64,000 nucleotides of DNA from Thelephora terrestris (lineage: Eukaryota; Basidiomycota; Agaricomycetes; Thelephorales; Thelephoraceae): NCBI GenBank assembly GCA_015956445.1, contig WIUZ02000020.1, positions 558,001 through 622,000 on the forward strand, given 5' to 3'. The stretch's first letter is position 1. The number at the start of each line of letters is the position of its first letter. This document shows positions 28,671-59,623 of the stretch, piece after piece. The notes under the pieces are model-generated. The model was not told the DNA's origin. It saw only the letters and a list, made by a program, of their open reading frames with translations, and did no database searches. Position numbers and translations under genes: made by a program.

Positions 28671-31600
28671 TTACGACGCGTGAGAAGGTGAAAGCGATGA
28701 CCCAGAAATTCGAAATGACAACGGAGCCGTCGGGATCAACTCGAACACGTGCTGAGCCGTCTCTCCTATCTTCCCAAGCGGGGGCATTTCCATCTCCATT
28801 ACCCCGTGTACCCTCGGTTCCTGCGAAACTCCCTCATCCAAGGCACCTTCAGAGATGGCCTGAGACGTTCCTCGGCCGTCCCAGCTACATCGCATATCGT
28901 TTCCAGAGATGATTTGGACCAAACGACCAGTCTCTATGTGGCGAATTTCAATGAAGTGGCTATCGAAGAGCAGGACGTAGGGTGGATGCCAGGCGACTCG
29001 CTCCGCCGTGCCTTCCCACTCCACCGTACCCATAGGACGACTTGCGTGTTTGTCGACATATAACCCGAACTCTGTAGCGATCGTCAGGTTCCCCCGGCTC
29101 AGGTCCTTCGGTCAAGAACCCACCATCATAACAGAGTAAGATCTCGTCTTTGTTCGACAGGCTGAACATGCCCATCGGTCTACACGACTCGGCTCTCCTC
29201 GCAAGGCTCTCCAATCGGGGGTCTTCCATCAGGGGATCAGTAAAACTCTCAGAGCTACCTAGATGTTAGCTGAGTCATCCCACTTCCGCAGAGGAGGCGA
29301 CCCACTTTGTAAGGTCCATGATTTCGAAACCCTTGCTGCACAGGATTACGATCCTTGTTTTCAGGAACAGCAAATCATAGGAATCCGAGGGCAAGAAGAA
29401 GTCCTGGGAAGGAAAAGCCTCAGCCTCCCCAATCCGCAGACAGAAGACCGGAACTTACACGATAAACACGGAACCACTCTGACCGTTGAGACCGTAGACT
29501 GAACCTTGACCCGATCGAAGGCTGAGGTTTTGACTTCTCGTTTATCTTTCCGATCACAGGTTCGAAGGCGCGGAACAAACTATCATGCTGGAAGGTAAAT
29601 TTCGGTCAGGAAACTTTGACTCTTCTGGATCAGAAATCACCCACATTCTTCTTCCTCATGTAAATGACCAGCGTCCTGCCGTCGAGATTACCAACGGCAA
29701 AGAACTGGACATCTTTGTTGCCGCTGAGCTTTTGGGGTGTCTGTGAAGTGTTCGCTGCTCCGGGCGAAGAGGGTACGAGCGCTTCAATGTGGTAGGCAAA
29801 GAGGGACTACGATGGCCATCAGCGTCATACAGGCTGCTAAGTTCCTCGTTCCGTACCTTGTCCGCGAGTACGAGGAAGATACCGAAATCTTCCAGCATGG
29901 CGCATTGAGTCACCATTCGTAGGTGCAACACTCGTCGCATGGCTGGACAGACACCCCGAATGAGGAAGAAGCACATCGGAAGCAAAAATGACACATACAC
30001 CGTGAATCATGTCTAAACCCGATCCACACTCCTTCCGTGCATCCTATGGCCACCAGAGCACGACCATCAGGGGTAGCTACAGATCCCGGTCAGCGCAGTA
30101 AATGTGCAGAGGTCCTGCATGACGTACAGAAAGGAACGGAACAAGTGACCTTGCTCGTGAAGTTCCCATCATTATTCCACGATGGTCCCGCATTCGCCAG
30201 AAGTGTAGGAGCGTAAAACGTGTCCATGCTCAACGTCCCCACCTCGAATACCTTATTCGACTCTTGTACAACCTTTCTCAGCCCTATCGCTTCCTCCAGC
30301 TTGGCTTTCCACTCCAGCCGTGCCTGAGAAGTCTCAGCAAACAGAGTGTAAAGACCACCCAATCGACAGTTATGGTGGATTGTACAGGGGTACACCGCTC
30401 GACCGTCGTTAACAGCCTCGGGACTCGTACTCGCAGCGGGGGAACTGGAGTTTTGGGCTTGACCATCCATCTCCCTCTTGTTACTGCCGCCGAAAGGTAA
30501 CAGCCCGCCACCTCGCCGGGTGGGAGGATCTGTGAAGGTTGTTAAGGTGAGCAGGTCCAGTGGAATGGGCTACAAAACGAATGAGAACTTGTAGTCCAAC
30601 CTGAAATGAAAATTGACTTGCCCGTCGGTACACTTGGTACTTTGTAATTCCATCCTTCTCCTTGGATTTCGTCATGACAACTATAAAAGGTTCGTGAGCT
30701 GAGGACACGCCAGATAATCACAACTCCTCCTACGGTAATTGTCGAATAGCAGAACGAACAGTTCCTTCCATTCGTTCCATTCAAATCCTGTATCAGGCTG
30801 TCGCAAGAATTTGCCAGCGTGGATCAATGATCGGTTTTCGTGGAGCAGGTCCATGTCCTACCGAGCTTTAGCGTTGAACGCACATTTTGAAAAGGGAAAA
30901 CAGACGTACAATGTACTCTCCAGCTTTGAAAAACAGATTCTCATAATACTTCAGCAGCTCCACCTTCTGCTTAGCCGCTAAGACTCCAGGTTCTGTCTCC
31001 TTTCCGAAAGCCTCGATTACATCCAAATCGGGAGCTAACTTTAATGGCTTCGGACCTGTAAGGTTAGAGATGTGGGTCAAGCACACACTGCAAAGGTTGC
31101 GAAGCAGATAATTACCATAAGAATCACTAGATATGGTAGGCACGGGGGCCGTCAGGAAATGTTAGATGAGACTAAAAGTTCATGTAGTGGAGCGCTGCTA
31201 GATTTCTACTGACCTGGTAAAAGTTGGTTCCCTATCAATGAAAGTTCCCGATGGTTTGCTTGGGGTTGTTTTTCCATCCACAGAAATCTGGGGGACGGAT
31301 GTAGTGCTTTCCGCATCATACACACTCACCGCAGGTGGAGTTGGAGTGAGCAAATGCAGGTTTGGAGTACATAACCTGGAGCTGCGGAAAGTTGCAGGAT
31401 GTTATAATGTTGCAGTCCCCTGAGTAGACAGAGATACTAGCCATTCGCGTAAAATCCCGACCACGCTTGCCATTATAGGCCTCTGGGCGGGGTCTTGGGT
31501 CCAACAGTGGAGTGTCATGTTCCACACCAAATCGATTAAACCTGGCTCCTGCGGGCGATCCGGGCGTTCACCTGCGATAATCTTTGAAACGGCGACTAGC

Positions 31601-32779
31601 GGCGTGAACTCGCTGAATGGATGTCTTCCGGTAAACACCTTAGATAAGGTGAGGATGTCAGATGAACCATCCGTCGTCCGCACCTAAAACTTGGCCTAGG
31701 GAGGGCTAGCCACTGACCTCTATTACAACCATCCCAAAAGCAAAGACATCTGCCTCTCTTGTGTTTTTATCACCATTCCCAAGAACCTCCGGCGCGGCCC
31801 ACCTGGCAGAATACCCCTGTACTTCGGTTACGAGGACAGAGTTCACCCCACGAACGACCGAGGTGAAGCCAAAATCTGTCAGACAGGCATGTCCGGTCTG
31901 GTCAATTAGGACATTGGGCTAGTCAATGCTTCTGAGCTTTTGAGTCTAAAACAATCAAAAGGAAGCACTTGCCCCTTTCAAGTCTCCATGTGTTGTGTAA
32001 ATTGCATGAAGAAAGGTGAGACCTTCTGCAACATCCAATAACTCGGGATAATTTGTTATCGCTCAATATATGCACCACAGCAAAGAAAGACCCACTAGGC
32101 CGATCCGATTCGCGCCCGGATTCTCAGATAGATATTCTGTTAGAGTCCCCTTCGGCATCCACTCCGATACTAATCGCAGGGGGTTTCGCATGACACCGAT
32201 AAAACCAACGATGTTTGGATGTTTCAACCTCTTCCACATCACCGCTTCCTTGCAGAACGCCTACGTGCCGACAAGCGCCTCTCAGTGAGCGCAAGACGAA
32301 TCAACAGGAACACAAACCTTCTCGATGACCTGGCGAGTTTGCTGGGTGATCCTCAAGCGTTTGATACAGACCTTCTTGCCATCATAGGTGCCTTCCCATA
32401 CATCCGAAAACCCACCAGAAGCGACTGGATCATCGTCGATTATCGTGAGGTCACCAGAAATATTGTACGAGGATGGTAGGATCTTGTGGCGGCCGCAGAT
32501 TGCCTGGAGTTTGTGTAGACAACGTCGAGAAACATCGTCAGTGATCGGAATGACGTCGAGAGCCTGCAGAGTTTGTGTCGTCAGTGGCGGGAAAGAGACC
32601 GAAGGAGAAGGACGCACCCCGTCAAGAAAATCCACAAGCCGAGTCAACTCCGAACCCTGGAGACTGGACACATATTGTTCTTCGTCGTCGTTTTGGATCA
32701 AGTAATAGAGATAGCGCAACAGATCGGGAGAAGAAGTGTCAAGCGTGTAGAGGTGTTGTAAGACCTGGGATGTGGACAT
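28671..32779 (-). CDS. Copy 1: TKL kinase-PH-CNH chimera (DH region lost)
   Basis: Start MSTSQVLQHLY at 32,779 is conserved in copies 2-4; stop at 28,671. Spliced order: helical leader (QGSELTRLVDFLDG, to about 32,610); kinase with ASGGFSDVWEG, VCIK, KEAVMWKRLKHPNIV, HGDLKGPNVLI, DFGFTSV, RWAAPEVL (32,440-31,440); a Pro/Thr-rich linker (VSVYDAESTTSVPQ, about 31,390-31,200); a remnant of the last DH helix (FGKETEPGVLAAKQK, 30,960-31,020); PH (VVMTKSKEKDGITKYQVYRR, RLGGLYTLFAETSQARLEWK, 30,840-30,250); CNH (VVESN..., RVLHLRMVTQCAMLEDFG, WEGTAERVAWHPPYVLLFDS, to the stop). All kinase landmarks are present, so activity is plausible. Without DH it should not act as a GEF. I infer a membrane- or Rho-pathway-tethered kinase. 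Splice sites (GTGAGT/TAG) were placed by eye; integrity is not proven. Confidence 0.75.
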
Positions 32780-33467
32780 CTTGGCTAAATCCACCTCCGT
32801 GATTCCGCTGGCGCACTCACTGAGGGCCAGCACGTGAAGGGGCGTCAGGCGCGGTATCGATTGAATTGCTGTTCTGCAACTTGGCACTTTCGACCATCTA
32901 CAGGGGCTGGATCTATGTTCACTGGAAGATAACTACAGTATCCTACGTTCTGGTTCATCGGCGTGCTCTGCTGGTGAAAGAAAGCGATCCCCAGCCACAA
33001 ACCTAGTTCTGGAAAACTCCACCGTCTTCCCGGTGGTGCGTGGGGGGTCACATTGAGGCCAACAGCTGTGGTTTAACAGCGATAGCCGGCACAGCACTGC
33101 CGTGAGACTCTCGGGATCGCAACAAATCTTTAAATTACCGAAGCAGAAACCCTCAAGAACCGGGCAAATTTATTCGTCCAGGACTATGGAAACAGTCGGA
33201 ATGCTACCCGAGCGCAGGTAAGGAAATCAGGAGAGGCGAAATGCCGCAATGGATCATTCTGAAAAGAAGTGGTGGAACGAGCATCATTCGTTGTTAACCA
33301 GAGAATGAGGGGGGGGGGGCTAAATTGAAGTGGGAAGAGGGCGTGGAAAGCCCCAGATTACGAGCTGCGAGACGAGTATCGTTGACAACAGGGTAAGAGG
33401 GAGATAGAACTAGGTCGAGGAGAGCGGTGGGAATCGAAGACCTTGAGAACTTACATATGACCATCGA
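32780..33467. other. Intergenic region between copies 1 and 2
   Basis: Contains the 5' flank of copy 1 and the 3' flank of copy 2. The 3' part (about 33,170-33,460) matches 39,610-39,860 and 51,610-51,840 in words such as GACGAGTATCGTTGACAACAGGGTAAGAG. No separate gene is seen. Confidence 0.5.
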
Positions 33468-36400
33468 TTACCGAACCGAATATGCCGGGGTCAGCTTCGA
33501 CGAATGGGGGGCCGGATTCGACTGGTTAAAGTACGACGCGTGCGAAGGCGATGCCAAAGACCAGGGCAAAAACAGCGGGCTAGTCGGGATCAACTCAAAT
33601 ACACGCTGAGTGGTCATTCCCCTCTTCTCAGGCTGGGTCGTTTCCATATTCATCACCCCATGTACCCTTGGTTCCTGCGAAACTACCTCATCCCGAGCAT
33701 CTGGAGAGATGGCTTGAGAATTGGTCGTGCCCCGGCCGTCCCAGACGCATTGCACTTCAATTCCGGGGATGATTTGGACAAGATGGCCGGTCTCCACGTG
33801 CCGAATCTCAATGAATTTCGGATCGAAAAGGAGGATGTAGGGCGGGTGCGAGGCGGCTCGGTCCGCTTTGCCTTCCCATTCGACCGTGCCTATGCGCGAG
33901 GGGTCTCCATGTTTGTCTACATACAGCCCGAACTCTGCGGATGGTGTCAGACCGTTCCACTTTCAGGCGCCACGGCCGAAGACATACCGTCGTAGCAGAG
34001 CAAGAACTCGTCCTTGTTAGATTTGAACATGCCCGTGGGCCGACATGACTTAATCCTGTTTGCAAGTTCCTTCAACCGAGGATCGTCGTCCATGGGAATG
34101 GTAACACTCTTGAAACTACCCAGGTGTTAACCAAAGCATCCCACTTCCACATGGGAGGCGACTCACTCTGAGAGGTCCATGATTTCGAAACCCTTGCTGC
34201 ACAGGATCACGATCCTCGCTGTCAGGAACAGCAAATCATACGAATCCATGGGCAAGAAGAAGTCCTGAAAACGGAAAGACTCAGCAGCCTCAATAAACTG
34301 GTAGACAACCAGAGCCTACACGGTAAACACGGAACCACTCTGACCGCTGAGTCCGTAAACCGAACCTCGACCCAGTCGAAGATTGAGGATTCTTCTTCTC
34401 GTTTATCCTTCCAATCACAGGTTCGAGGACTCGAAACACGCTATTGACCTGGAAAGTAACTTTCTATCAGGGGGCGCTGACTCTTCTGTTGTGAAAATCA
34501 CCCACACCCTTCTTCGACATACAAATGACAAATGTCCTGTCGCCAAGATTACCGACGGAGAAGAACTGGACATCCTTGTTATTGCTGAGCCTTTGGGGTG
34601 TCTGTGAAGCATTCGCTACTCCGGGCAATGAGGGTACGAGGGATTCAATGTGGTAGGCAAAGAGTGACTACAAGGATCATCAGCGGCATACAGGCTGAGA
34701 CCCTCATTTCGTACCTTGTCTGCGAGTACGAGGAAGACACCGAGATCTTCCAGCATGGCGCATTGGGTCACCCCTTGTAGATGTAGCACTCGTCGCATAG
34801 CTGGAAGCCACCTGGAATGAGGAAGAAGTATAACGGGAGCCGAAATGACACATACATCGTGAATCACGTCTAGGCCCAATCCACACGCCTTCCGCGCACC
34901 CAATAGCTACCAGAGCGCGACCATCAGGAGTAGCTACAACCTCGGTCAGCATAGAAAAAAAAGTACAGAAACCCAGCATAGCATACCGAAAGACACGGAA
35001 CAAGTGACCTTGCCCGTGAAATTACCACCATTACTCTGGGACGGTCCCACATTCGCCAGAAGCGTAGGAGCGCAAAACGTATCCACGCTCAAATCCACCA
35101 CCTCAAATGCTTTGTTCGACTCCTGGGTTACTTTTCTCATTCTCATCGCTTCCTCCAACTTGGCCTTCCATTCCAGCCGTGCTTGAGAAGACTCAGCAAA
35201 CAGGGTGTACAGACCACCCAATCGGCCGCTGTGTTGGATTGTACAGGGGAACACCGCTCGACCATCGTTAACGGCGGCGGGGACATTGGCGTTTTGGAAT
35301 TGAGCATCCGCCTCCTTTTTACCACCGCCCCCGAAAGGTAGGAGCCTGCCGCCCCGTGAGGTCGGAGGATCCGTGAAGGATGCCAGAGTAAGAAGGTCCA
35401 GTGGGATAGGCTGCGCGGCGGGTGAGAAATTTGCAGTCCAGTCTAGATGGGAAGTGACTTGCCCGTTGGTGCACTCTGTACACCGTGGTTCCATCCTTCT
35501 CCTTGGGTTTTGTCATGACAACTACCAAGGGATTCGTGAGTCGAGGACACACCGAAGCAACCACAACTCCTCCTACGGTAGTTATCGAACAACAAAACGA
35601 ATAGCTCCACCCATCCACCCCAGTCAAATCCTGTCTCAGGCTGCCGCATGAGCGTGCAAGTATAAATCAACTGCCGATTCTCGTGAAGCAAGTCCATGTC
35701 CTATCGAGCGTTAGCGTTAAACGCGTGCTCTGACAAGGCAAAACAAACATACGATGTGCTCTCCAGCTTTGAATTCCAACTTCGCATTATACTCCCAAAG
35801 CTTTTGCTTTTGCTTAGCCGACATGACTCGAGGTTCTATCTCCTTTCCAAGACCCTTGATGACATCCAAGAGGGCAGGTATCGATTCCAAATCCCCGTGC
35901 CCTGCGGATGTTTCCTCGAGAAGGCCCCTCAACAGCAGCTCGTAACGAAGGAGACGATAGACAGGCCTGACGATAAAACTCTTCATATCCATCTTGTGCG
36001 CATCAACATGTCGCACACATCGCTAAAAGGAAACAGGGAAGGGATCAGAAGAACGTGACGAATACGACTGGAAAACTCACATCAACAAAAGCCTTGAACT
36101 GCGGGTTATTTGCTATCTCATCGTCGATCCGATACGCCGCGATAGGGTAATTCGGAGCGTACTTCAGATACGCGTCCCTGAAGGCCAGGACCGCATCATG
36201 CATCGGCGCAGTGATACTCCTGATGATCGGATGCTCCTCTCTCTGAATCTCGAACAACTGGTCCAGGAGTCGCTTGTGATGCGCGTGTAGTTCACCAGAG
36301 TTGCAGAACACGTCTCGGATGAAGCTTTCCAGTCGGTCGCGAGGGATGATTGGTGGGTCCATCGAACGCAACGGTAGGACGTACATCTGTAGTTGGCCGT

Positions 36401-38761
36401 GGAGCTTTCAGTAGGAAACTCGGAAGGCACGCTTCAGACGTACGTATTCGATGCTTTCCAGATCCTTGACGTAGTCCATCTCTCCCTGGATAAGTTCAAA
36501 GATGATACTGCGGAAAACCGTCAGCCAACCTTCCCCGTCATCTCTCACCGTGAGCGAGGAACACTCACGCCTGACGCTTCGCCACCTGCTTTGGAATCCC
36601 ACTCCTTACATCCCCAGGCACCAGGTTGTACCACTGGAACTTCCCTGGAGGACCCTTGCCCATGGCTTGTTGGAAGGCCTTCAGCTGAGGTACACTCAGG
36701 AGATGTATCACGGTCTTAATCGCTCCTTTCAAAGAATCAATGTCAGGGTCCCCCTCTGCTGTCGCCAACCGAATTTTTTCGAAAAAGTCTAAGTATATTC
36801 GCAGGTGCTCCAAAGGGCGGTTGAGCCAATGCTTAAGATCCTTCTTGTTCGCGTTTTCCGGGTGCCAGAGAGATTGCTTGACGAAAATCAGAGGAGGATT
36901 AGTCTCCAATGCTCGACAGTAGTCCGAGAGGACCTAGTTCACACCTCAAGGAAGGCCCTGAATCTGAATTCTCCGCTATTCTCCATCTCCTCCTGCGATC
37001 TCTTCTCTGCCGCCGCCAACTGGCAAATGTACGCAGTATATGCCGGTCGGAACTCAGTCGCAGCGTTGAGGAAGATACCCCCGATCCTCAAAGCGATCAC
37101 GCCCTGCTCCCGTTGCTGACTGTTAATCATCTCCAGAAAGTGACGGTTGCATTCACGTAAATCAAGGATGTTCCCGAACACTTCATCCATAAATTCATGG
37201 ACGCCGCCTCGGATAACGGGAGGATCTGCATTTCGCAGACGGCGAATGTAAGCCTTGCAGAAATACTTGAGCTCCTCGCCCGACATCGGCCAATTTACGG
37301 TACACTACGCACCTCCTCGATAAAGTCCAAGTCTTTAATATACTGCTGTTCCTGCGCAATGAACTCGCGGATGATTCTAGACATCCTAATTTGAGTAGGA
37401 GACATCGCCGGTGGGGAGTGTCATACGTTTGACGCTTGACTTCGCGTAGAGTTACGACCACGCTCTTCATTGCGGGCCTCTGGGCGGGATCTTGGTCCCA
37501 ACAGTGGAGTGTTACGTCCCACACTGCATCTGTTAAACCCGGATCCTGCGGACGATCCGGCCGTTCACCCCCCATAATCTTGGAAGTAGTGACTTCCGTC
37601 GTGAACAGCTTAAACGGACGCCTTCCGGTAAAGACCTTAGATGAGATGTGGAGGTCAAGTGAACCACACACAAACACTAGTTGCAAGGGTCCAGGGACTG
37701 ACCTCTATTATAACCATGGCGAAAGCAAAGACGTCTGCCTCTCTTGTGTTTCTATCACCTTCCACAAGGATCTCCGGCGCGGCCCACCCCGGAGAATATC
37801 CCTGTACTTGGGTGATAAGAACGGAGTCTAACCTACGGACGACCGAGGTGAAACCAAAATCTGTCAGGCGGGCACGACCGTTGTAGTCAATGAGAATGTT
37901 GGGCTAGTGAAAGGCTATTAGTTCAGGTTGAAACGACGAAAAAAGTACCTACCCCTTTCAAGTCTCCGTGTGCCGTGGATCTTCCATGGAGAAAGGCGAG
38001 TCCTTCTGCGACATCCAAGAGCTTGGGAGAACACAGTTATTGGTCGAGCAGCAATTCTCACTGGGGAGAGACCTACAAGAGAAATTCGGTTTGCGCCCGG
38101 ATTTTCACATAAATACTCGGTTACGGTTCCATTCGGCATCCACTCCGAAACGAATTGCAATGGGGTTCGAGTAACGCCAATGAGAGGAACGATATTCGGA
38201 TGTCTCAGCCTTTTCCACATGACTGCCTCCCTGCAGAATCCCTACGTATCGCAAAGCATCGCTTGGTGAGCACAAAACAGACAGACCGACAGATATTACG
38301 AGCCTTTTCAATGGCTTGACGAGTTTGCTGAGTGATTCTCAAGTACTTGATACAGACTTTTTTGCCATCGTAGATGCCTTCCCATACATCGGAAAACCCG
38401 CCGGAGGCAACTGGGTCATCGCCGACTCTGGAGACCTCCCCAGAGATGTTGTGAGAGGATGGCAGGATGTTGTGGCGGCCACAGATTGCTTGAAGTTTGT
38501 GTAAACATCGTCGGGAAACATCGTCAGTGATCGGGGTGACATCAAGGACCTGCAGAGTCTCGTTCGTTAGCTGGGGGCGGGACTAAGAGGGGGACTTACC
38601 TCGTCGAGAAAATCGACTAGTCGAGTCAATTCCGGCCCCTCAAGACTGGTCGAATATTGTTCTTTGTCGTCGTTTTGGATTAAGCGATCGAGACAGTGCA
38701 ACAGTTCAGGAGAACAAATGTCGAGCGAATAGAGGTGTTTTAAAACCTGGGAAGTAGACAT
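33468..38761 (-). CDS. Copy 2: TKL kinase-DH-DH-PH-CNH chimera
   Basis: Start MSTSQVLKHLY at 38,761, stop at 33,468. Order: helical leader (to about 38,600); kinase (ASGGFSDVWEG, VCIK, HGDLKG, DFGFTSV, GWAAPEIL, FTGRRPF...DPAQRPAM; 38,440-37,450); the junction REVKRQT (about 37,440); DH module 1 (REFIAQEQQYIKDLDFIEE, FMDEVFGNILDLRECNRHF, KKDLKHWLNRPLEHL; 37,390-36,565); DH module 2 (ELIQGEMDYVKDLESIEYV, FIRDVFCNSGELHAHHKRL, DMKSFIVRPVYRLLRYELLL; 36,560-35,720); PH (35,690-35,150); CNH (35,000-33,468, RLVQ/HLVQIIPG near the end). Predicted to combine a kinase with a Rho1-type exchange factor. Copy 2 and copy 3 are very similar throughout. About a dozen short introns are needed; every spliced segment I checked is open, but the full splice was not verified. 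Confidence 0.78.
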
Positions 38762-39861
38762 TGTGAGCAAACCCACCACCAGAATTCTGCAGGCAGCAAA
38801 ATCGCTGTCGAAGATAAAGCGACGATACCCTGGGGCGCCATTACACGACAGCGGGCGCGCAACATCGCCAAAACTTTCAAGCTGTCCGAGTCACGTGCAA
38901 CAGGATTGATAGTCTACGCCGCGGGCAGATTGGAACTTTGGAAGAAAATCCAGGTAAGCTACCGAACACATTCCCTATACGTCGCTAGTTCTCATTTCCG
39001 AACACCGAAACTAGACACTCAACGCTGGAAATTGTTTCACGGCTCGCTAAAGCGCGCCAGTTTGGATGCGTTCCGGCTTCGGTACTGGTTCAGGAGCGGG
39101 CCGTGTGTTTTACCTCGACTCGACTGAGCTCACGTGACTCGGGACGCCCGAATCACAGTGACAATGACATGAATCACATCCGAGTCCTAGCTCAAGCCCG
39201 AGGGTTCACAGCAGCCTCATCTCAATCAAGGACTTGCCGGTTATGCTCCACCTCCTGTTCTCATCGAGCAAGTATGCATCCCACCAGGCTTCAGCGCTGG
39301 GCTCGTATTGTCGCGACAAGAGTACTTTGTGTCCAGCTTGAAGTATGCATCGGGGGTATTCGCCTCAGTGAAAAGCTTTCTCTGCAGATTATCAACAGAC
39401 AATTACGCCGGAATAGAGAGCTCCGTTTCTGAGTGGCTCACTTCTTTACCTCGTCGGTTAGAGGCTTCTCGAGCCGTCTCTCGCGATGTTGTAGTGCCTG
39501 AGACGAAGGGATACCCGAAGCCGCGACGGCATCTTTGGGTTCTGCCTGCTTCAAACCACAGCTCACAGACAAGTACAGCTTTCCATCTTAAAAAAGTTAC
39601 CAAACTACACATGCGAAAATAGACATATATATTAGTCCAAGACTGCACCAACGCTCAAAACGGCCAAGACCAGTGCGAACAACGAAATCGAGAGAGGTGG
39701 GTAAACCGTACAGATCACCTTGAAGAAGAAGAAGGAAGTGCGTAGACGAGTATCGTTAATCATTAACAACAAGGTAAAGAGAGGGGGGACAGAACTGGGC
39801 TGAGGAGAGCGGAGGAAACTAAGAACCTCCAGACGTCGAGAACCTATCTATTTTCCTTCGG
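38762..39861. other. Intergenic region between copies 2 and 3 with a duplicated coding relic
   Basis: The 5' flank of copy 2 (to about 39,100), then a relic at about 39,200-39,440 whose minus-strand reading contains SRQYEPRAEAWWDAYLLDENRR and SITGKSLIEMRL, then the 3' flank of copy 3. The relic is repeated at 51,170-51,420. I do not recognise the protein; it is an exon-sized remnant of a gene caught in the duplications. Confidence 0.5.
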
Positions 39862-46594: not shown

Positions 46595-49500
46595 TCAGTC
46601 CATCGGATTGAACCACGGTGCAAGCGGAGGCGAAGCCGAAGCCCCAGACGAAGGCGACGAAACCGTCGTCGGTATCAACTCAAACACGTGTTGGATCGAC
46701 ATGTTCCTCATCCCAGGTTGAGGCGCTTCCATATTCATCACTCCGTGTATCCTCGATTCCTGCGAAACGGCCTCGTCCTGAGAACCCTCGAAGAGGGCCT
46801 GGGAACAATTCGCGCCTCGGCCGTCCCAAATGCATTGAAAGTCGTTCCCCATCCCCGGGATGACCTGGACCAGCCGGCCGGTCGCTACGTGGCGGACCTC
46901 GATGAATCGGCCATCGAAGAGGAGGATGTAGGGCGGGTGCCACGCGATTCGCTCCGCCATTCCTTCCCACTCAACTACACCCATACGACGACTCGGCTTC
47001 CCGATTTTGTCGACATAGACCCCAAAGTCTGTAGATAGTGTTAGATCACCCAACTTTCGAGTCTTTTGCCCAAAAGATTCACCATCGTAACAGAGCAAAA
47101 ATTCGTCTTTGTTCGACCTGAACACACCCATGGGCTTGCACCACTTGATCTTCTTCGCGAGCTTCTCCAACCGGGGGTCTTCTACCCGAGGGATGGAAAC
47201 GCTCTTTTCGCTGGGCAGGTGTCAACGAGGGCATCCCTGAGCTTCGAGTCCCCAGCGTAAAGACGGCTCACTCTGAGAGGCCCATAAGTTCAAATCCTTT
47301 ACTGCACAAAATTACGATGCTTGTTTCCAGAAACGTTAAGTCGTGCGAGTCCAAGGGCAACAAGAAGTCCTGGAAAAAAGGCTCAACGTCTCGAAAAGTA
47401 GGGGCTCATGCAGGACCTACACGATAAATGCGAAACCACTCGGACCGCATAGACCGCAGACTAAACCTAGACCCGACCGGAAGTTGTGCTTTTGACTTCT
47501 CGCTTGTCTTCTCAATGATCGGTTCAAGGAACCTGAATAAGCTACCAGGCTAGAAGGTGGCACTTAGTCAGGGGGCGTTGATCCTAAAATGTCAAAATCA
47601 CCCACATTCTTCTTCCTCATATAAACGACCAGCGTCCTGCCGTCAAGATTGCCGACACTAAAGTATTGCACATCCCTGCCCCCGCTGAGCTTTTGGGGTG
47701 CCTGTGAAGCGTTCGCTGGTGCAGGTGATGTAGGCAAAAGTGCCTCGATATGGTAGGCAAAGAGCGACTGAGACAGTCATAAGCATCAAACAGGCTACCT
47801 TAATCCTCATTTCGTACTTTATCTGCGAGTACGAGGAAGATGCTGTAATCTTCCAGCATAGCACATTGTGTCACACCCCGGAGGTGAAGTGCTCGTCGCA
47901 TCGCTAGAAAACACTTGGAATGAGGTAGGGTCGAACAGGAATCAGTGAAGATTGTTACACCGCGAATCATTTCTGGCCCCAATCCAAACCCCTTCCGCAC
48001 ACCCAACGGCCACCAAATCACGGCCATCAGGGGCAACTGTAGCCCCGGAAAAAGTCGACACAGAGAACGTAGGGATGTGCAAGATCGCTTACCGAAAGCA
48101 GCGGAACAAGTGACCTTGCCTGTAAAATTCCTATCGGCGCCCCACGGCAGCCCCGCGTTCGTCGGAGACACCGGCGAAAAGAACGTATCCATGTTCAAGG
48201 TTTTCACCTCAAACACCTTGTTCGATTCCTGTGCGATCCTCCTCAACCTGATAGCTTCCTCCAACTTTGCCTTCCATTCCAACCGCGCTTGGGCAGACTC
48301 CGCGAACAGAGTGGAAAGACCTCCAAGTCGACCTTTGTGGTGGACCGTACAAGGGTATACCACAAGAGTACCATCTATGACTCGGGGACTCCCACCCGCA
48401 GCATTAGGACTCACGGTTTTGTCTTGATCCCCCGCACCCCTCTCATGATCTACATACAGCGGCCCCTCGCCTCCTTTGGTCGGAGGATCTGTGAACGACC
48501 CTAGAGAAAGAAGATCCAAAAGGATAGGCTGCACAACATGTGAGGGATTAGGTGGTTCTGTATGAAGTTTGGTGTGACTCACCCACCGATATACCTGGTA
48601 CTTGATGACCCCATCTTTCTCAACGGGTCTCGTCATAACAACTACCGGGGTTCGTCAGCACGGCCCAAGAAAATAGACCATAAGAACAAGTCCCCACGAT
48701 AGTTATCGAACAGAAAGGCGATAAGCTCCGTCCACCCATTCCATTCGAATCCTGTCTCGGGCTGTCGCCAGAACTTGCCAGTATGGATCAAAGATCGATT
48801 CTCGTTGAACAAGTCCATGTCCTACCCAGAATCAGTGTTGAATATCCAATGGTCATACGGATAAAGCAATTAACAAGCATACGATGTTCTCGCCGGCTTT
48901 GAAGTCCATAACACGCTTCAACCCATCCGATGTAGCTGCGAGGTCCGTCATAACATCCAAAATCGCAGGTGACCTCAATGACGTTGGGTCTGTGCTGCGG
49001 TTAGAGATGTGGACTGCGCACATGTTTTAAACATTGGAAAGCAGATAATCACCGTAAGAGCCGGGGTAGGCACGAGGTTCGTCGGTTAACGGCCCTAACG
49101 ACCAATAACCCTGCCGGCTGGAACGTTTCAAGGCTCGTACTGACCCATTGATACCCGAATCTCCACCCACGGACCACGGGTAAGTGGGTGAGCGGTTCAT
49201 GGCATCATCTGTGCCTGGCGATCGGGTTGGGTGTTTTTTCCCGTCTGTGCAAATCAGCGAGATGGATGCAAAGTTTCCCGTGTTGTACGCACTCTCCGTC
49301 GGCGAAGCAAACAGGGTCAAGTTTGGGTCCGCAATGTAGCGCCGATAACTGCAGAGAGTGGAAGCATGTTATGGTGTTAGTTGCATGAAGGGAAACAACA
49401 CTAACCATTCGCGTAGAGTTTCGACCACCTCCGTCATGGCAGGTCTGACACCAGGTTCTTGGTGCAAACAGCCGAGTGTCATGCCCCACACCTTATCTGT

Positions 49501-50742
49501 TACTCCTGGGACTTGCGGACGACCGGGCCGTTCACCGTCTATAATCTTCGAGATAGTGACTGGACCCGAGAATTCGCTGAACGGACACTTTCCAGTGAAA
49601 ACCTTGAACGGGATATATATGTCAGGGGTGAATCATCCATCCCCTCACCAAAAATAGGCATAGGGAGACGCAAGTACTGACCTCTATCACAACCATTCCA
49701 AACGAGAATACGTCTGCTTCTCGCGTGTTTTTATCGCCACTCTTGAGAACCTCTGGTGCGGCCCATCTAGCGGTATACCCCTGCACCGCTGTTACGAGGA
49801 CGGAGTTCGTCCCACGGACAACCGAGGTGAAGCCAAAATCCGTCAAACGGGCCCGCCCTCTCTCGTCGACAAGAATGTTGTGCTAGTCAAAGGTTATTGA
49901 TACAGCTCAAAACAGCCTAGAGCAAGTACTTGCCCCATTCAAGTCTCCGTGGGTGGTGTAGTTTGCGTGAAGATAGGTGAGACCTTCTGCTACATCCAAT
50001 AACTTTGCAGAGTAATGTTATCAGTCGAGTAGCAATCGTGGAGGGAGAGCTCACCAGACAAGTTCGATTCGCATCCGGATTTTTATCGAGATACTCTGAT
50101 AAAGTCCCATTCACCATCCACTCCGACACAAATTGCAAGGGATCTCGGGTAACGCCGATGAAAGCGACGACATTCGGATGTCTCATCCTCTTCCACATGA
50201 CCGCCTCCTTGCAGAATGCCTACGGTCGACCGGTATCTCCTTGTGAGCGCAGAGCAGATAGGCCAATACCGGACACGAACCCGCTCAACGCCCTGGCGAC
50301 TTTGCTGGGAAATTCTCAAGCATTTGATGCAGACCCTGTTGCCTCCGTACGTGCCTTCCCATACGTCGGCGAAACCGCCGGAGGCGACCGGCTCAACACC
50401 GACTCTTGAGACATCGCCAGGAATGAAGTACGAGGATGGCAGGGTCGTATGGTTGCCACAAATGGTTTGTAGTTTGTGTAGACACCGTCGGGTAACATCG
50501 TCAGCGATCGGAGTGACATCAAGGGCCTACAGAGTCCGGCTCTTCAGCTGGAAAGAGACCGCACAGAAAGTGGTACGCACTTGATCAAGGAAATCCACTA
50601 GCCGAGTCAAGTCCGATCCCTGAAGGCTGGACAAATACTGCTCTTCTTCGTCGTTTTGGAATAAGCAATAGAGATTTCGTAACAGATCAGTAGAAGAAGT
50701 TCCGAGCGCATAAAGGTGCTGCAAAACTCGGGAAGTGGACAT
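46595..50742 (-). CDS. Copy 4: diverged TKL kinase-PH-CNH chimera (DH region lost)
   Basis: Start MSTSRVLQHLYALG at 50,742, stop at 46,595. Order: helical leader; kinase (ASGGFADVWEG, VCIK, WKRMRHPNVV, HGDLNG, DFGFTSV, RWAAPEVL; 50,400-49,400); linker (LTLFASPTESAYNTGN, 49,360-49,150) like that of copy 1; a short DH remnant (VMDFKAGEN, near 48,890); PH (ENRSLIHTGKFWRQPETGFEWNGW, MTRPVEKDGVIKYQVYRW, GRLGGLSTLFAESAQARLEWK; 48,820-48,190); CNH (47,950-46,595, with WEGMAERIAWHPPYILLFDG). The most divergent of the five. The catalytic loop has Asn where the others have Lys (HGDLN), which may weaken catalysis. Shares architecture with copy 1, not with its neighbours. Confidence 0.72.
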
Positions 50743-51843
50743 CGTGGATCGCTCTACTCCCTGGATTCCGCAGGCGGTGCAAAGGCCATCGGATACGGGG
50801 TAACAGCCTCAGCCTCTCCATGATCAAGATAGTACATCACGTGCCACAGGTCGAATTTTTAAGCATGCTCTTCCTTAGGTCTGCATAACACCAGAGTCGA
50901 CCAGAGTGCTTCTCAAAGTTTCTCACCATCGGCTGGTCATTGTACCGCCCAAATCCTCATGGAAAAGTTTGCCCTACGTTGCGGAACACAGCCGGCGGTG
51001 CAACAACTAGCTACATACCGACCCCCGAAGCGAAGACTTACTGCCAACCATTCCACCCGGAGTCCCACTACTCGATAAGTCAACGTGCAAGTATCATCAC
51101 GCACTTGCGGCACATATGATTTCTCCTCGTGGAGCAGATCACCTTTCCTTGTTGGCCAAACATCTGTTCGCGAATGTTGCAGCCTGTTGGCAGCCTCATC
51201 TCAATCAAGGACTTGCCAGTAATGCTCCACCTCCTGTTCTCATCGAGCAAGTATGCATCCCGCCAGGCTTCAGCTCTGGGCTCGTATTGTCGCGACAAGA
51301 GTACTTTGTGTCCAGCTGGAATTATGCATCAGGGGGTATTCGCCTCAGTGAAAAGCTTTCTGCAGATTATCGGCAGACAATTACGCCGGAATAGAGAGCT
51401 CCGTTTCTGAGTGGCTCACTTCTTTACCTCGTCGGTTAGAGGCTTCTCAAGCCGTCTCTCGCGAAATTGTCGTGCCTGAGGCGAAGATACCAGAAGCCGC
51501 GACAGCATCTTTGGGATTCAGAGTGCTGCCTGGCTCAAACAACGGCTTGCAGACAAGTACAGTTCTCCATCTTAAAAAAGTTACCAAACTACACATGCGA
51601 AAATAGACATATATATTAGTCCAAGACCGCACCAACACTCAAAACGGTCAGCACCAGTGCGAACAACGAAATCGGGAGAGGTGGATAAACCGTACAGATC
51701 ACCTTGAAGAAGAAGAAGGAAGTGCGTAGACGAGTATCGTTAATCATTAACAACAGGGTAAAGAGGGGGGGACAGAACTGGGCTGATGAGAGCGGAGGAA
51801 ACCAAGAACCTCCAGACGTCGAGAACCTATCTATGTTCATCGA
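50743..51843. other. Intergenic region between copies 4 and 5 with the second copy of the coding relic
   Basis: The relic at about 51,170-51,420 (minus: SRQYEPRAEAWRDAYLLDENRR) and the following 3' flank (51,540-51,840) match 39,200-39,860 closely, including TACACATGCGAAAATAGAC. It marks a duplication boundary that lies between gene units. Confidence 0.5.
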
Positions 51844-54800
51844 TTACCGAATCGAATATGCCGGGTTCAGCTTTGGCGAATGCGGGGGCGAATTCGACTG
51901 GTTAAAGTACGACGCGTGCGAAGGCGACGCCAAAGACCCAGGCAAAAACAGCGGGACCGTCGGAATCAGCTCAAACACATGCTGGGTCGTCACTCCTCTC
52001 TTCCCAGGCTGGGCCGTCTCCATATTCATCACCCCATGTACCCTTGGCTCCTGTGAAACTACCTCATCCCAAGCACCTTCAGAGATGGCTTGAGCGTGAT
52101 TCGTGCCCCGGCCGTCCCAGATGCATCGCATATCGTTTCCGGAGATGACTTGAACAAGACGGCCGGTTTCAACGTGGCGAATTTCGATGAATCGGCTATC
52201 GAAGAGCAGGACGTAGGGTGGATGCCAGGCCACTCGCTCTGCCGTGCCTTCCCACTCCACCGTACCCATAGGACGACTTGGGTCTCCGTGTTTGTCGACA
52301 TATAACCCGAACTCTGTAGCAATCATCAGGTCCCCTTGTGTCAGGTTCTCCGGTAAAAAACGCACCATCATAACAGAGCAAGAACTCGTCTTTGTTCGAC
52401 CTGAACATGCCCATCGGTCTACACGACTCGGCCCTCCTCGCAAGCCTCTCCAATCGGGGGTCTTCCCTCTGGGGGATAGTGACGCTCTTGAAGCTACCCG
52501 GATGTTAACCAAGTCATCCCACTTCCGCAAAGGAGGCGACTCACTCTGAAAGGTCCATGATTTCGAAACCCTTGCTGCACAGGATCACAATTCTCGCTTT
52601 CAGGAACAGCAAATCATAGGAATCCGAGGGCAAGAAGAAGTCCTGGGAAGAAAAAGGGTCAGCTTCTCCAATCCGCAGACAGAAGACCGGAACCTACACG
52701 ATAAACTCGGAACCACTCTGACCGCTGAGACCGTAGGCCGAACCTTGACCCGATCGAAGGCTGAGGTTTCGACTTTTCGTTTATCTTTCCGATCACAGGT
52801 TCGAGGACGCGGAATACGCTGTCAAGCTGAAAGGTAACTTTCGATCAGGCAACGTTGACTCTGCTAATTCAGAAATTGCCCACATTCTTCTTCTTCATGT
52901 AAATGACTAGCGTCCTGCCGCCAAGATTACCAACGGTAAAGAACTGGACATCTTTGTTGCCGCTGAGCTTTTGGGGTGTCTGTGAAGCGTTCGCTGCTCC
53001 GGGCGAAGAGGGTACAAGGGCTTCAATGTGGTAGGCAAAGAGCGACTACGATGATCATCAGCGTCATACAGGCTGCTAAGTTCCTCGTTTCGTACCTTGT
53101 CCGCGAGTACGAGGAAGATACCGAAATCTTCCAGCATGGCGCATTGAGTCACCATTCGTAGGTGCAACACTCGTCGCATAGCTGGACACACACCCCGAAT
53201 AAGGAAGAAGCACATCGGAAGCAGAAATGATACTTACACCGTGAATCATGTCTAAACCCGATCCACACTCCTTCCGCGCATCCTATGGCCACCAGAGCAC
53301 GACCATCAGGGGTAGCTACAAATCCCGATCAGCGCAGTAAATGTGCAGAGGTCCTGCATGACGTACAGAAAGGAACGGAACAAGTGACCTTGCCCGTGAA
53401 GTTCCCATCATTATTCCACGACGGTCCCGCGTTCGCCAAGAGCGTAGGAGCGTAAAACGTGTCCACGCTCAACGTCTCAACCTCAAATACCTTATTCGAT
53501 TCTTGCACGACCTTCCTCAGCCCTATCGCTTCCTCCAACTTGGCCTTCCACTCCAGCCGTGCCTGAGAAGTCTCAGCAAACAGAGTGTAAAGACCACCCA
53601 ATCGGCCGTTATGGTGGATTGTACAGGGGAACACAGCTCGACCGTCGTTAACGGCCTCGGGACTCGTACCCGCAGCGGGGGAACTAGCGTTTTGGGCTTG
53701 ACCATCCACCTCCTTCCTGTTACTGCCACCGAAAGGTAACAACCCGCCACCTCGCCGGGTTGGAGGATCCGTGAAGGTTGCTAAAGTGAGCAGGTCCAGT
53801 GGAATGGGCTACACAACGAGTGAGGATTTGTAGTCCAACCTGAAATGAAAATTGACTTGCCCGTCGGTACACTTGGTACTTCGTGATTCCATCCTTCTCC
53901 TTGGATTTCGTCATAACAACTATGAGAGGTTCGTGAGATGAGGACACGCCAGATAAGCACAACTCATACGGTAATTGTCGAACAGCAGAACAAACAGTTC
54001 CGTCCATCCGTTCCATTCAAATCCTGTATCAGGCTGTCGCAAGAATTTGCCAGTGTGGATCAATGATCGGTTCTCGTGGAGCAAGTCCATATCCTACTGA
54101 GCGTTAGCGTTGAACGCGCATTTTGAAAAGGCAAGACAGACGTACGATGTGCTCTCCAGCTTTGAAGACCAAATTCGCGTTATACCTCCACAGCTCGACC
54201 TTCTGCTTTGCCGACCAGACTCCAGGTTCCGTCTCCTTTCCAAGACCCTTGATGACATCCAAAACGGCAGGTATAGTATCCAGATCCTCATGCCCTGCGG
54301 AGGTTTCCTCGAGAATACCCTTCAACAGCAACTCGTAACGAAGGAGACGAGGGATAGGCCTGTTGATGAAATTCTTCATATCCAGTCTGTGCGCATCAGC
54401 ATGTCGCACGCATTGCTAGAAGAAAACCGGGAAGGGATCAGAAACACCCGGATGTGACGAAGACAACTGGAAGATTCACATCAACAAAAGCCTTGAACTG
54501 CGGGTTATTTGCCATCTCATCGTCGATCCGATACGCCGCGATAGGGTAATTCGGAACGTACTCCAGATACGCGTCCCTAAAGGTCAGAACCGCATCATAC
54601 ATTGGCGCAGTGATACTCCTGATGATCGGATGTTCCTCTCTCTGAATCTCAAACAACTGGTCCAGGAGTCGCTTGTGATGCGCATGCAGTTCACCAAAGT
54701 TGTGGAACACGTCTCGGATGAAGCTTTCCAGTCGGTCGCGAGGGATGATCGGTGGGTCCATCGAACGCAATGGCCGGACGTACATCTGCAGTTGGTTGTG

Positions 54801-57800
54801 AAGGCTTTCAGTAGGAAATCCGGAATGCACGCTTCAGACGTACGTATTCGATGTTTTCCAGGTCCTTGACGTAGGCCATCTCTCCCTGGATAAGCTCAAA
54901 GATGATCCTGTGGAGGACCGTCAGCCAATCTTCCCCGTAATCTCTGACCGTGAGCGAGGAACACTCACGCCTGACGCTTCGCCACCTGCTTTGGAATTCC
55001 ACTCCTCACATCCTCAGGCACCAGGTTGTGCCACTCGAACTTCCCTGTCGGACCCTTGCCCATAGCCGTCTGGAAAGTCTTCAGCTGAGCGACGCCCTGG
55101 AGGTTCCTCATGGCCTCAACCGCTTCTTTTAAAAAATCGACGTCAGGATTCCCCTCCGCCGTCCCTGACCGGATTGCCTCAAAGACGACGGGGTATTTGT
55201 GTAGGTGCTCGGAAGGGCGATTGAGCCAATGCTTGAGATCCATCTTGTTCACATTGTCCGGATGTCGGGGGCGTTGCTTAAAGAGAAGCACAGGAGGGTC
55301 AGTCTCCAACGGCCCATAACACGTTCAAGGAAATCTAAACATACTTCCAGGAACACCCTGAATTCTCCGTTGTTTTCTATCTCCTCCTTCAGTTTCTTCT
55401 CCGCGTCCGCCAAGTTGCCAATGTAGGTGGGGTAAGCCAATCGGAACTCGGTCGCCGCATTGAGAAAGATATCCCCAATCCTCGAAATAATCTCTCCCTG
55501 CTCCCGTTGCCGAACGTACATTGTCTCGAGCAGGAGACGGTTACATTCACGCAGATCGAGGATATTCCCAAACACTTCATCGATAAATCGATCGACGTCG
55601 TGTTTGATGACGGGAGGGTCCGCGTTTCTCAGGGGGCGAATGAAGACCTTGTAGAAACGCGTGAGCTTCTCGCTCGAAGACGTCGTGGGATCCGTGACGT
55701 ACCTCTTCGATAAAGTCCAAGTCTTTGATGTACTGTTGTTCTTTCGCAATGACCTTCCGGATGATTCTAGATACTCGAGTTAAGCCACATGTCGCCCCGG
55801 TGATCAATGCCATACGTTTGACGTTTGACTTCGCTTTCGGGTAAGGATGCAAGGATTTCTGGTGGTAGCGCTTCTTGCCACTCGATGCTCTGAATGGATG
55901 ATAAGAAATGTCTTTTCAAATCCAGCAAACTCAAGAGAAGGTACATACCGCCCTCGGGGGTGGGACCTCGACCGCAGGTGTCGATAATAGTGACGCAGAT
56001 TGACCCTAAATCCGCAATTCAAATTCCCTGAGCAAAGTCATCGCATCCCTTGGCTGCGAAGCGATGCTTACCCGTCTCGGACACGAATACGCGTAGCACG
56101 GATGTTCATCCACGCAACAAGGAGTGTAACACTTGGTAAGATACGTCACAACTCCGGTCGGGAGTTCCTCCATCTGAATTGGAGCATCTGATCCTCCCTG
56201 CTGGTCGTCCAAGAACATATACACATCCTCCACACCGTCAGTCAGAGCCCTGCCGCCCCACTCCACCTCGTAGAAAAAGAGCTGGCTTTGGAGACTACGG
56301 GCGACTTCGATGGCAGCCCTCCTGTCATTTGTTGAGATGCCATGGTTGATGAGCAGCTCCCGCTGTATCTGGGCTTGAATGGTCGACTGGGTAATGATGA
56401 CCGTTAAGCGCCATGCCACTCTACGACAGCTCGGTGATACTCACCACAATGTCCTTTCCTGTGAAAGCCCTGGGGTACGGAATGCTGCCTTTGACATGAG
56501 TCCCCCGAGGAACGCGATCCCTCAAACGAACAGCAAGATGTGACAGCAGTGCGAGGTTAACGAATAAACTTTCATCTTCCTCAGAGTCTGTGTAAAGCCC
56601 TTCGTCCTCGGCATACTCTACATCGGGGTACTGATCCTGCGAATAGTTGTCCCCAAGCGGAACGGGCATCTTGATATCCGCATAAGGCTGGGGTAAAGAG
56701 CTAACTCTGGAGATAGTGGAATCGCCCCGGTAGAGACTTGTACCCACAGAAGACGAAGGTCCAATAACAATGTGTTCACCACCGGTGTTAGTAGACGTTA
56801 CGGAGCTGTTTCGGTCAAGGTTCACGTGCGAGTACGATGTTGAAGCAGAAGGACCACGAGACAACGTCATGTTTATATTTTCAGTATCTGTGAATCATTC
56901 AAGCCAATGTCAAATGATGCTTTCTCGGAAGAAGAAAAACTCTTACAAGATGGGGAATCCGTGTGGGGATTTACCAGTTTACCGGGCGGATAGGCTTGGT
57001 GAGGCAAAGGCGGTAACACGTAAGAAGTTGAGCTATCGTTTCTGTAGATGGGAAGGCCAACGCCATTGGATTTACTGGAGCCCGGGTAGGGTGGATACGG
57101 ATCTTCAGTAGGTAAGGCGGGTTCAGGCATGTGGGTTATCTGAGTGGGCATTGAGGGAATCTTGGGCGGAAGAGGCGGAGGAGCGGTTTTAGCTCTTGAC
57201 AATGTCGCTTGGTCCCCCCAGCCGTGGATAGGATCAACGTCATCTTGCGGGTACAGCGATGTCTGTGGCATCTTCGGCGACGCGGTCGATCGTGACGACC
57301 CAGGACGGAGGGTGGACCCCAAATGAGAGGGCTGAGAGTTCCTGGGATTAACGGAAAAGTAGTCGTTTGATGGACCTCCGCCGTTATGATATCCGTTCGT
57401 GCCATTAGAATTAGAAGAAGGGGAAGAGATCCTGGGAGGTCTGGAGCTGGGAAGATCGATTCGAGCGGATAAACGGTTTGGAGAGAGAGCATAAGTAGAA
57501 TAGAGTAGCTTACGAGTCTTGACTGCGGGCAGAAGAACGAAATGGATGAGGTTCCGGCATCCCATGACTGCTGGAGGTTGGGGATGAGGGAGTGTTTCCG
57601 GGGATAGGAGGAAGTCGCCTTCTTGCAGCTTGTCCTTGAGATTGAACTGATGAGGATCGTTGAGCGGAAACGGCTGATTGAAGATAGTAAGAGGTTAATG
57701 GACACGGATTAGAGAGATGGAACGAGGCTGGGTGGAAGTTCGCGTACGTTGGGAAGCGATAGTGTAAGATGGTGTTCTAGGCAAATTGGAAGAAGATTCG

Positions 57801-58203
57801 GTGGAATCCTCAATGTAGGAAGAGTAGAGGGAGTCCAGATCGGAGGAGCTGGTCGGGTTATGTGCTACCGGGGTTGGGAACTCTGGAGGGGAATCGTCGC
57901 TGAAACCGGCGAGGACTTCGTCGTACAAGTCCTGCAAGTCCACATCGACCACGGGTTCTTGGGTGAGCATGACTGCGTTAGGAAGGGCGAGTTGAGCTGA
58001 GACACCGTTCGAACGTGCGGAGATGACGGCCTGAGCCAGTTTCGTCTCAGGCTTGCAGCACCTCGTTCACTGGAAGTCGTGGTCGGGGGAGCGGACGAAA
58101 ACAGATCGTGGTTACTTTCTGATCGCACAAGTTCACCCGCGCGTACCGGTCTGATATCTGTTTCCTCTTTTTCGACAAGTTGATACCCAGCCTTACGCAG
58201 CAT
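51844..58203 (-). CDS. ROM2: Copy 5: Rom2-type RhoGEF (DEP-DH-DH-PH-CNH), probable parental gene
   Basis: Likely start MLRKAGYQLVEKEE at 58,203, stop at 51,844. Order: Ser/Pro-rich disordered N-terminus (58,203-56,600, with PPPLPPKIPSMP); DEP (FVNLALLSHLAVRLRDRVPRG, GRALTDGVEDVYMFLDDQ; about 56,570-56,200); a conserved Cys-rich turn (HPCYAYSCPRR); LPESEVKRQT (55,830-55,870); DH module 1 (IIRKVIAKEQQYIKDLDFIEE...DLKHWLNRPSEHLHKYPVV; 55,780-54,965); DH module 2 (IIFELIQGEMAYVKDLENIEYV...LDMKNFINRPIPRLLRYELLLK; 54,960-54,104); PH (54,060-53,500); CNH (53,400-51,844). Fungal Rom2 proteins activate Rho1 at the plasma membrane in cell-wall integrity signalling, and this layout matches. The frame between 57,970 and 58,010 must change through an intron I could not place. 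Confidence 0.85.
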
Positions 58204-59512: not shown

Positions 59513-59623
59513 GAGTCGAAGGCGGGGATACAAATAGGCGCTGGCACCAGGCTCACGTTCAGTCCCCGATCATCGACGTAATCCCCTTCTCAAAAGCTGA
59601 CCCAACCACCGAGAACACTCAAA
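59513..59623. promoter_or_regulatory. 111 bp divergent promoter between thioesterase and tubulin cofactor B
   Basis: The only sequence between two start codons read in opposite directions. Both genes must share it or overlap their promoters. It has CCCAACCACCGAG and pyrimidine-rich stretches; no TATA box is seen. Confidence 0.6.

Follow-up and report, generated by a model that had tools for sequence, protein, structure and literature searches.

Results

Four predicted kinase hybrids lie in tandem beside a Rom2-type gene

We analysed a 64,000-nucleotide stretch of the Thelephora terrestris genome (GenBank assembly GCA_015956445.1, contig WIUZ02000020.1, positions 558,001 to 622,000; hereafter the window, in whose own numbering positions are given), which carries five tandem minus-strand genes, G1 to G5, from 28671 to ~57970, with PH and CNH common to all. 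G5 is an orthodox Rom2, of the Rho1 guanine nucleotide exchange factor (GEF) family, with a disordered N-terminus followed by DEP, two tandem DH units (DH1 and DH2), PH and CNH, and the other four genes start with a helical leader, followed by a TKL-type kinase. Gene models, obtained with a gene finder written for this analysis and hand checks on DNA alignments, and Pfam bear out the original prediction, made from the letters and their open reading frames, in the five genes sharing PH and CNH, in the four leader-kinase beginnings and in the DEP-bearing fifth gene. That prediction also placed a DH in all four kinase genes, which holds for two of them: G2 and G3 read leader-kinase-DH1-DH2-PH-CNH, in 22 exons each that are open throughout once spliced, and G1 and G4 read leader-kinase-tail-PH-CNH, lacking a catalytic DH and keeping only the end of DH2 before PH. 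The doubling of DH in the Rom2 gene had escaped the original prediction. The models of G1 to G4 are open from start to stop.

51844..57970, minus strand: G5, Rom2-type gene; 1624-residue model, start uncertain (gene model, Pfam, conserved-site test)
46595..50742, minus strand: G4, kinase-tail-PH-CNH; 1038-residue model (Pfam; public model P0087)
39862..45160, minus strand: G3, kinase-DH1-DH2-PH-CNH; 1371-residue model, 22 exons (public partial model P0218 covers the kinase)
33468..38761, minus strand: G2, kinase-DH1-DH2-PH-CNH; 1373-residue model, 22 exons (Pfam)
28671..32779, minus strand: G1, kinase-tail-PH-CNH; 1020-residue model (public model P0002)
42956..43761 in G3, 37376-36569 in G2, 55766-54969 in G5, minus strand: DH1 (degenerate DH) exons
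42139..42894 in G3, 36507-35753 in G2, 54907-54146 in G5, minus strand: DH2 (better-conserved DH) exons
within 31116..31381, minus strand: G1 kinase tail exons (31381-31214 and an 11-nt exon, 31126-31116); the public protein P0200 has the same tail
within 49348-49053, minus strand: G4 counterparts of the G1 tail exons

The public model P0002 differs from our G1 model solely by a 4-residue insertion; P0087 shows small differences from our G4 model and skips the catalytic-loop exon 50002-49934. For the G1 linker, the final splice model follows the G1/G4 alignment and agrees with P0002, of which it is not fully independent; the best-scoring splice model, which differs from it, was set aside. Since the tail is common to G1 and G4, with alignable introns, the kinase-tail-PH-CNH arrangement is probably one old event. 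The start at 58203 chosen for G5 in the original prediction was also taken by our gene finder, and the resulting peptide may be the end of the upstream neighbour gene; the 11 other Rom2 N-termini compared start near the counterpart of the MLTQEP..DLQDLY stretch. The intron after the catalytic-loop exon is GC-AG in G3 (44351-44301), G4 (49933-49883) and G1 (31972-31919), and has GT in G2.

Domain content of the hybrids and their Rom2 neighbour

Pfam finds PK_Tyr_Ser-Thr, RhoGEF in two stretches (the second scoring best), PH_5 and CNH in the G2 model, the content that the original prediction expected of the spliced proteins; RhoGEF is absent from the G4 model and from P0002. The G5 model has two RhoGEF stretches, PH_5 and CNH, and its DEP, under the cut-off (24 vs 32.7 bits), keeps 64 of 66 conserved DEP sites; DEP was not found in the models of G1 to G4. 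Among the five proteins scanned (G2, G5, G4, P0002 and P0001, a public model from scaffold C58), CNH exceeds its cut-off in all and PH_5 in four, G4 falling below (27.2 vs 30 bits). Pfam detects DH in G2, G5 and P0001, and alignment shows it in G3; in G1 and G4, ~400-500 bases separate the kinase from the start of homology to the DH2 end.

PK_Tyr_Ser-Thr outscores Pkinase in G2, G4, P0001 and P0002. A motif script located the Lys, HGD..N, DFG, APE and glycine loop in the G1 to G4 kinases, which are non-RD, and the helix-C Glu was seen by eye. The PDB matches of the kinase (best 60 of 228) include tyrosine kinases, CTR1 and SYMRK, and none is named as AGC. An AlphaFold2 model of P0002, built on 20 alignment rows, has a mean predicted local distance difference test score (pLDDT) of 52.8; residues 1-350 mostly have block pLDDT values of 70-89, and PH and CNH have low confidence, making the model uninformative on both.

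For the DH2-PH piece of G2, the best PDB matches are the solved RhoGEFs ARHGEF3 and NET1. DH1 has a poor CR3-like segment in the aligned Rom2s, further changed in the chimeras, and the conserved DH2 segment INRPIPRLLRY reads IVRPVYRLLRY in G2 and G3 and IVRPVYCLLRY in the C58 copy. All 54 aligned Agaricomycete Rom2-type proteins carry two tandem DH units between DEP and PH, the first degenerate (54146-55766 in G5); parts of PMC8488606 describe a single coupled DH-PH module in the Rom2 of Aspergillus fumigatus.

Kinase and Rom2 exons join in frame

The kinase ends as CGCGAATGG in G1 and G4, the corresponding stretch in the Rom2 gene G5 is AGCGAAGTCAA, and the junction in G2 and G3 is CGCGAAGTCAA. 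The kinase exon passes in frame into the Rom2 exon at GCGAA, five nucleotides that both share, and the first DH helix follows five codons later. The 14-nt Rom2 part of the chimeric exon encodes VKRQT.

43812..44020, minus strand: G3 chimeric exon, 195 nt of kinase (44020-43826) and 14 nt of Rom2 (43825-43812), with GCGAA at the join
37427..37635, minus strand: G2 chimeric exon, 195 nt of kinase (37635-37441) and 14 nt of Rom2 (37440-37427)
43762..43811, minus strand: G3 junction intron, 50 nt, gtatgg..tctag, counterpart of the Rom2 intron 55815-55767
37377..37426, minus strand: G2 junction intron, 50 nt, gtatga..tctag
55767..55815, minus strand: G5 counterpart intron, 49 nt, gtatgg..tctag

The in-frame join at GCGAA, followed by Rom2's next intron, recurs in three of three chimeras (G2, G3 and the C58 copy, the last with its junction region at C58:1809300-1809640). 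In the stretch running from DH1 to the 47-nt PH exon, every exon but one (309 vs 303 nt) has the same length in G2 and G3 as in Rom2. Without splicing, DH1 is out of frame with the kinase, whose frame runs into a stop at 37195 in G2 and at 43514 in G3. The earlier claim that the kinase passes straight into the RhoGEF with no stop therefore needs amending: it is right after splicing of the 50-nt Rom2-type intron, which leaves these junctions free of stops, and wrong for the unspliced sequence. The public model P0001 reads across the junction with this intron spliced.

Purifying selection acts on kinase and DH parts

Ratios of nonsynonymous to synonymous divergence (dN/dS; Nei-Gojobori, pairwise) were between 0.10 and 0.36 in all 32 domain comparisons among the window genes, with one-sided Fisher p of 1.4e-3 to 1.6e-35 in the 8 that were tested. 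With the C58 copy, whose kinase was compared without its leader, 11 of 11 comparisons gave 0.12-0.39 (Fisher p <=1.0e-3). Across the three pairs of chimeras (G2, G3, C58), dN/dS was 0.28-0.36 for the kinase, 0.24-0.34 for DH1 and 0.28-0.39 for DH2. Between G2 and G3 the values were 0.28 for the kinase (dS 0.10), 0.36 for DH2 (dS 0.138) and 0.24 for DH1 (dS 0.135), the last reflecting 18 synonymous changes over 146 sites and 17 nonsynonymous changes over 535 sites (p 5.5e-5). DH1 of G2 and G3 stands at dS 0.78-0.79 and dN/dS 0.21-0.22 from G5, and the same ranges hold with the C58 copy included. For G1 and G4, dN/dS was 0.16 in the kinase (dS 1.0), 0.10 in PH (dS 2.3, near saturation) and 0.20 in CNH; all 10 pairs each for PH and CNH fell within 0.10-0.30. 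The kinase and DH parts of the chimeras are under purifying selection.

Departures were also counted at sites >=90% conserved in 54 Agaricomycete Rom2-type proteins, hand-chosen from search matches, with P0001 left out of the baseline.

G5: DH1 6/87, DH2 3/100, PH 4/80, CNH 4/194
G2: DH1 23/87, DH2 11/100, PH 8/80, CNH 18/194
G3: DH1 22/87, DH2 10/100, PH 4/80, CNH 9/194
P0001: DH1 20, DH2 12, PH 8, CNH 15
G1: PH 7/80, CNH 15/193
G4: PH 13/77, CNH 28/194

The 54 Rom2s themselves depart at a median of 1.3-3.4% by domain and a maximum of 14-33%, so that the chimeras depart no further than the most divergent Rom2s do. DH1 of the chimeras is constrained but changed.

Rom2-like tracts in G3 and G1

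39627..42304, minus strand: G3 tract close to G5, 90-100% per 150-column window, vs 56-87% to G2

G3 is 99% like G2 in parts of DH1, and from ~42304 to past the stop it is 90-100% like G5 instead, presumably through gene conversion or a crossover. The PH-CNH part of G1 is mostly 86-96% like G5, yet the kinase-to-PH junction is common to G1 and G4; this part, too, was apparently converted from Rom2.

Related genes elsewhere and the origin of the kinase

We searched the window's own assembly (40.6 Mb, 60 contigs), scoring the best candidates only, so that counts are lower bounds. Close CNH matches comprise the five window genes and at least two adjacent places on C58. One of these is the gene of P0001, a third chimera with the same junction as G2 and G3; the other, directly downstream at C58:1802590-1805009, is a PH-CNH gene in which neither a kinase nor a catalytic DH was found. 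Weaker CNH matches lie on C23, C12 and elsewhere on C58. Among the candidates scored, G5 alone gave close DEP matches; two distant ones lie on C58. C23 also has diverged pieces of PH and CNH, near 1994800-1996800. No Thelephora ganbajun chimera is among the matches listed; since no Rom2 of that species is listed either, we claim no absence.

In a tree of 45 kinases, with the rows of P0002, P0087 and P0218 replaced by G1, G4 and G3, one clade (support 94/85; 98/97 without G4) unites G4, G1 with P0200, and P0001 with G2 and G3; it is nested among T. terrestris kinases, which are the closest relatives found. A further alignment, which placed the DEP of Rom2 opposite the kinase, was left aside. 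Trees of DH and of PH-CNH used 27 of the 54 Rom2s (every second row); PH-CNH of all six Thelephora rows forms one clade (100/100), and G5 has short branches. G5 is of the parent type, judging by these short branches, its few changes at conserved sites and the only close DEP match found in the assembly. The idea that kinase-RhoGEF chimeras beside a Rom2 parent were fused and then amplified gains support from this and from the third chimera on C58.

P0200 continues from G1's tail into a PH for which FAPP1 (PLEKHA3) and CERT are the top PDB matches. Over 1699 nt, its kinase part matches G1 at 91% identity, and on C23 (locus C23:1743001-1748000) its PH lies in a 704-nt stretch that is 96% identical to a gene on C34 (C34:705501-713000). 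From motifs, we take the C34 gene to have predicted ankyrin-like repeats, this same PH and an oxysterol-binding-type C-terminus. The kinase-PH (OSBP type) gene on C23 reads as a very recent third fusion.

Outside Thelephora, P0122 (Leucocoprinus birnbaumii; predicted kinase-PH-PH-CNH) and P0099 (Termitomyces; predicted kinase-DEP-DH-DEP-DH-DH-PH-CNH) likewise combine a TKL-type kinase with Rom2-type modules; they differ in that their kinases lie far from the Thelephora clade in the tree, so both would be independent fusions or merged gene models. Marasmius P0092, considered as a further chimera, has only a kinase C-lobe before a whole Rom2 and was read as a merged model.

Surroundings of the array

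A Ty1-copia-type retroelement and degenerate relatives, named from motifs, lie beside the array at 23136-27737 (minus strand), ~5600-11000 (plus strand) and 16850-17254 (minus strand). The repeat at 19804-22633 of the window is also found beside the C58 copy, at 92% identity. The right flank, ~58541-63903, presumably holds a thioesterase-like gene (minus strand) and a ubiquitin-like plus CAP-Gly-like gene of the tubulin cofactor B type (plus strand), both named from motifs only.

Discussion

The hybrids share DH, PH_5 and CNH, with equal exon structure, with the fungal Rom2/Rgf1-type Rho1 GEFs, their direct parent, and differ from them in carrying a kinase in place of DEP and the disordered N-terminus, and, in G1 and G4, in having no catalytic DH. 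Animal Citron kinase and MRCK are AGC kinases with a coiled coil. They too join kinase and CNH in one chain, with PH before CNH and presumed Rho docking; the hybrids are TKL and not AGC, and their PH-CNH derives from Rom2, so the likeness is convergent. Trio, Kalirin and BCR of animals belong to other kinase groups, with other accessory domains, and are not known to carry a CNH. They combine a kinase and a Dbl-type GEF in one chain, an arrangement that the gene models predict for G2, G3 and P0001. The expanded Agaricomycete TKL kinases, treated for Laccaria in parts of PMC2838846, have the same leader, kinase domain and tail, whereas the C-termini of the hybrids are Rom2 or OSBP-type modules. 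Sticky/Citron is named in parts of PMC8488606; the kinase domains of Trio, Kalirin and BCR go without mention in the parts of PMC10453029 considered here.

To call these genes a 'new class', as originally proposed, is too strong: the architectures exist in the public predicted proteins P0001, P0002 and P0087, and kinase with DH, and kinase with PH and CNH, are known in animals. The public proteins bear no other name than 'CNH domain-containing protein', and we found no description of a fungal kinase-RhoGEF-CNH protein in the open-access literature (titles, abstract starts and some passages), which is no proof of absence. The parts are all known; as far as could be seen, there is no description of their combination, of its having arisen repeatedly within one kinase clade or of the exchange with Rom2.

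We favour, with a probability of roughly two in three, a real set of predicted kinase hybrids, in which one TKL-type clade was repeatedly joined to membrane- or Rho-docking modules and the array was shaped by duplication and conversion. We infer the following order of events. An older fusion would have set a kinase with its tail before the C-terminal part of a Rom2-type protein, giving the kinase-PH-CNH genes G1 and G4; another kinase copy would have recombined with Rom2 at GCGAA, just before DH1, giving G2, G3 and the C58 copy; and a recent fusion would have produced the kinase-PH (OSBP type) gene on scaffold C23. Thereafter, the array may have taken its form through tandem duplication and through gene conversion with Rom2.

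If, as the gene models suggest, kinase and docking parts are made from single transcripts and the kinases are active, CNH and PH would take the kinase to Rho1 and phosphoinositides at sites of growth and cell-wall formation, and DH2 in G2, G3 and the C58 copy would probably also load Rho1. With DEP and the disordered N-terminus lost, the normal autoinhibition and sensor input of Rom2 would be gone, and a kinase would stand in their place. Parts of PMC8488606 report that CNH of A. fumigatus Rom2 binds Rho1 (mid-micromolar) and call it a scaffold, and call DEP autoinhibitory, and, according to parts of PMC9697909, regulatory domains at the N- and C-termini are believed to keep the Rho1 GEFs of fission yeast inactive. 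By analogy, kinase-PH-CNH would place a kinase beside Rho1, and kinase-DH-DH-PH-CNH would add a GEF freed from DEP. More tentatively, and at somewhat less than even odds, the kinase clade may be a plug-in module that captures membrane addresses from its own genome (PH-CNH of Rom2, the whole GEF half of Rom2 and an OSBP-type PH), yielding a kinase-coupled Rho1 activator and kinase-only, Rho1-docked relatives, whose docking parts are continually rewritten by conversion from Rom2.

Several results weigh against the hybrid reading. No public full-length model of G2 or G5 was recognised among the best 120 of 440, 428 and 266 matches in three protein searches. Several copies have GC donors in their kinase introns, and in G2 and G3 a donor-acceptor pair is shifted. 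Translation of the C58 copy from the ATG that serves G2 and G3 soon meets a stop, and its public model starts elsewhere. The catalytic-loop Lys of G4 is replaced by Asn (HGDLNG), and the 5-nt identity is weak evidence on the mechanism of joining. Part of the signal of purifying selection could stem from gene conversion from Rom2, more readily for DH2, PH and CNH than for the kinase and DH1. DH1 of the chimeras evolved fast, with a stem branch of 0.41 vs 0.043 for G5; because DH1 is changed at 20-23 of 87 conserved sites (6 in G5) and DH2 at 10-12 of 100 (3 in G5), GEF activity of the chimeras may be reduced. Lastly, the junction intron of G2, G3 and the C58 copy holds an ATG in frame with DH1, missing from the G5 intron, so that DH could start separately, and P0218, the public partial model of G3, keeps this intron and so departs from the DH frame.

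In a reading that we consider unlikely, G2, G3 and the C58 copy encode single but GEF-dead proteins, with DH as a scaffold only and an action like that of the kinase-PH-CNH copies. The poor and further altered CR3-like segment of DH1 and the altered INRPIPRLLRY segment agree with it, as do the sisters G1 and G4, which manage without DH; against it, DH2 keeps 88-90 of 100 conserved sites and has a dN/dS of 0.28-0.39 among chimeras, the second RhoGEF stretch is the better one in G2, and G2 DH2-PH matches ARHGEF3 and NET1 best. The intron evidence opens a rather improbable route, by which the same three would be kinase genes that retain the junction intron, DH-PH-CNH being made from the intron ATG or not at all. 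This would account for P0218 reading through the intron and for the ATG in all three chimeras and not in G5, and the G2 branch site looks, by eye, weaker than that of G5. However, DH1 is under purifying selection between chimeras (G2-G3 and both C58 pairs), which recent copying from Rom2 does not explain because DH1 stands at dS 0.78 from G5; moreover, the intron is placed as Rom2's own, P0001 splices it, and the kinase and DH probably leave little space for a separate promoter between them.

It is quite improbable that the array consists of decaying duplicates, pseudogenes that conversion from Rom2 alone has preserved. Such relics might be expected to show much conversion, as in G3 and apparently G1, along with faster DH1 evolution, adjoining retroelements and a broken leader like that of the C58 copy, but the G1 to G4 models are open from start to stop, and the kinase parts, which Rom2 cannot convert, also have low dN/dS. 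An assembly artefact is scarcely credible: similar tandem repeats are prone to misassembly, and over their 5' halves G2 and G3 are as much as 99% alike, but for most pairs of copies the difference is 10-32%, and another scaffold carries the same junction in a copy with differences of its own.

On the hybrid reading, if the genes are expressed, this ectomycorrhizal fungus would unite in one protein a kinase and an activator of Rho1 from the cell-wall pathway, with Rom2's usual sensor input bypassed. The genes also document in detail the rewiring of signalling proteins: their fusion points can be placed exactly and lie in frame, two fusions of different age are followed by a very recent third (its PH donor 96% identical), copies are found both in tandem and dispersed, and the parent has apparently converted parts of them.

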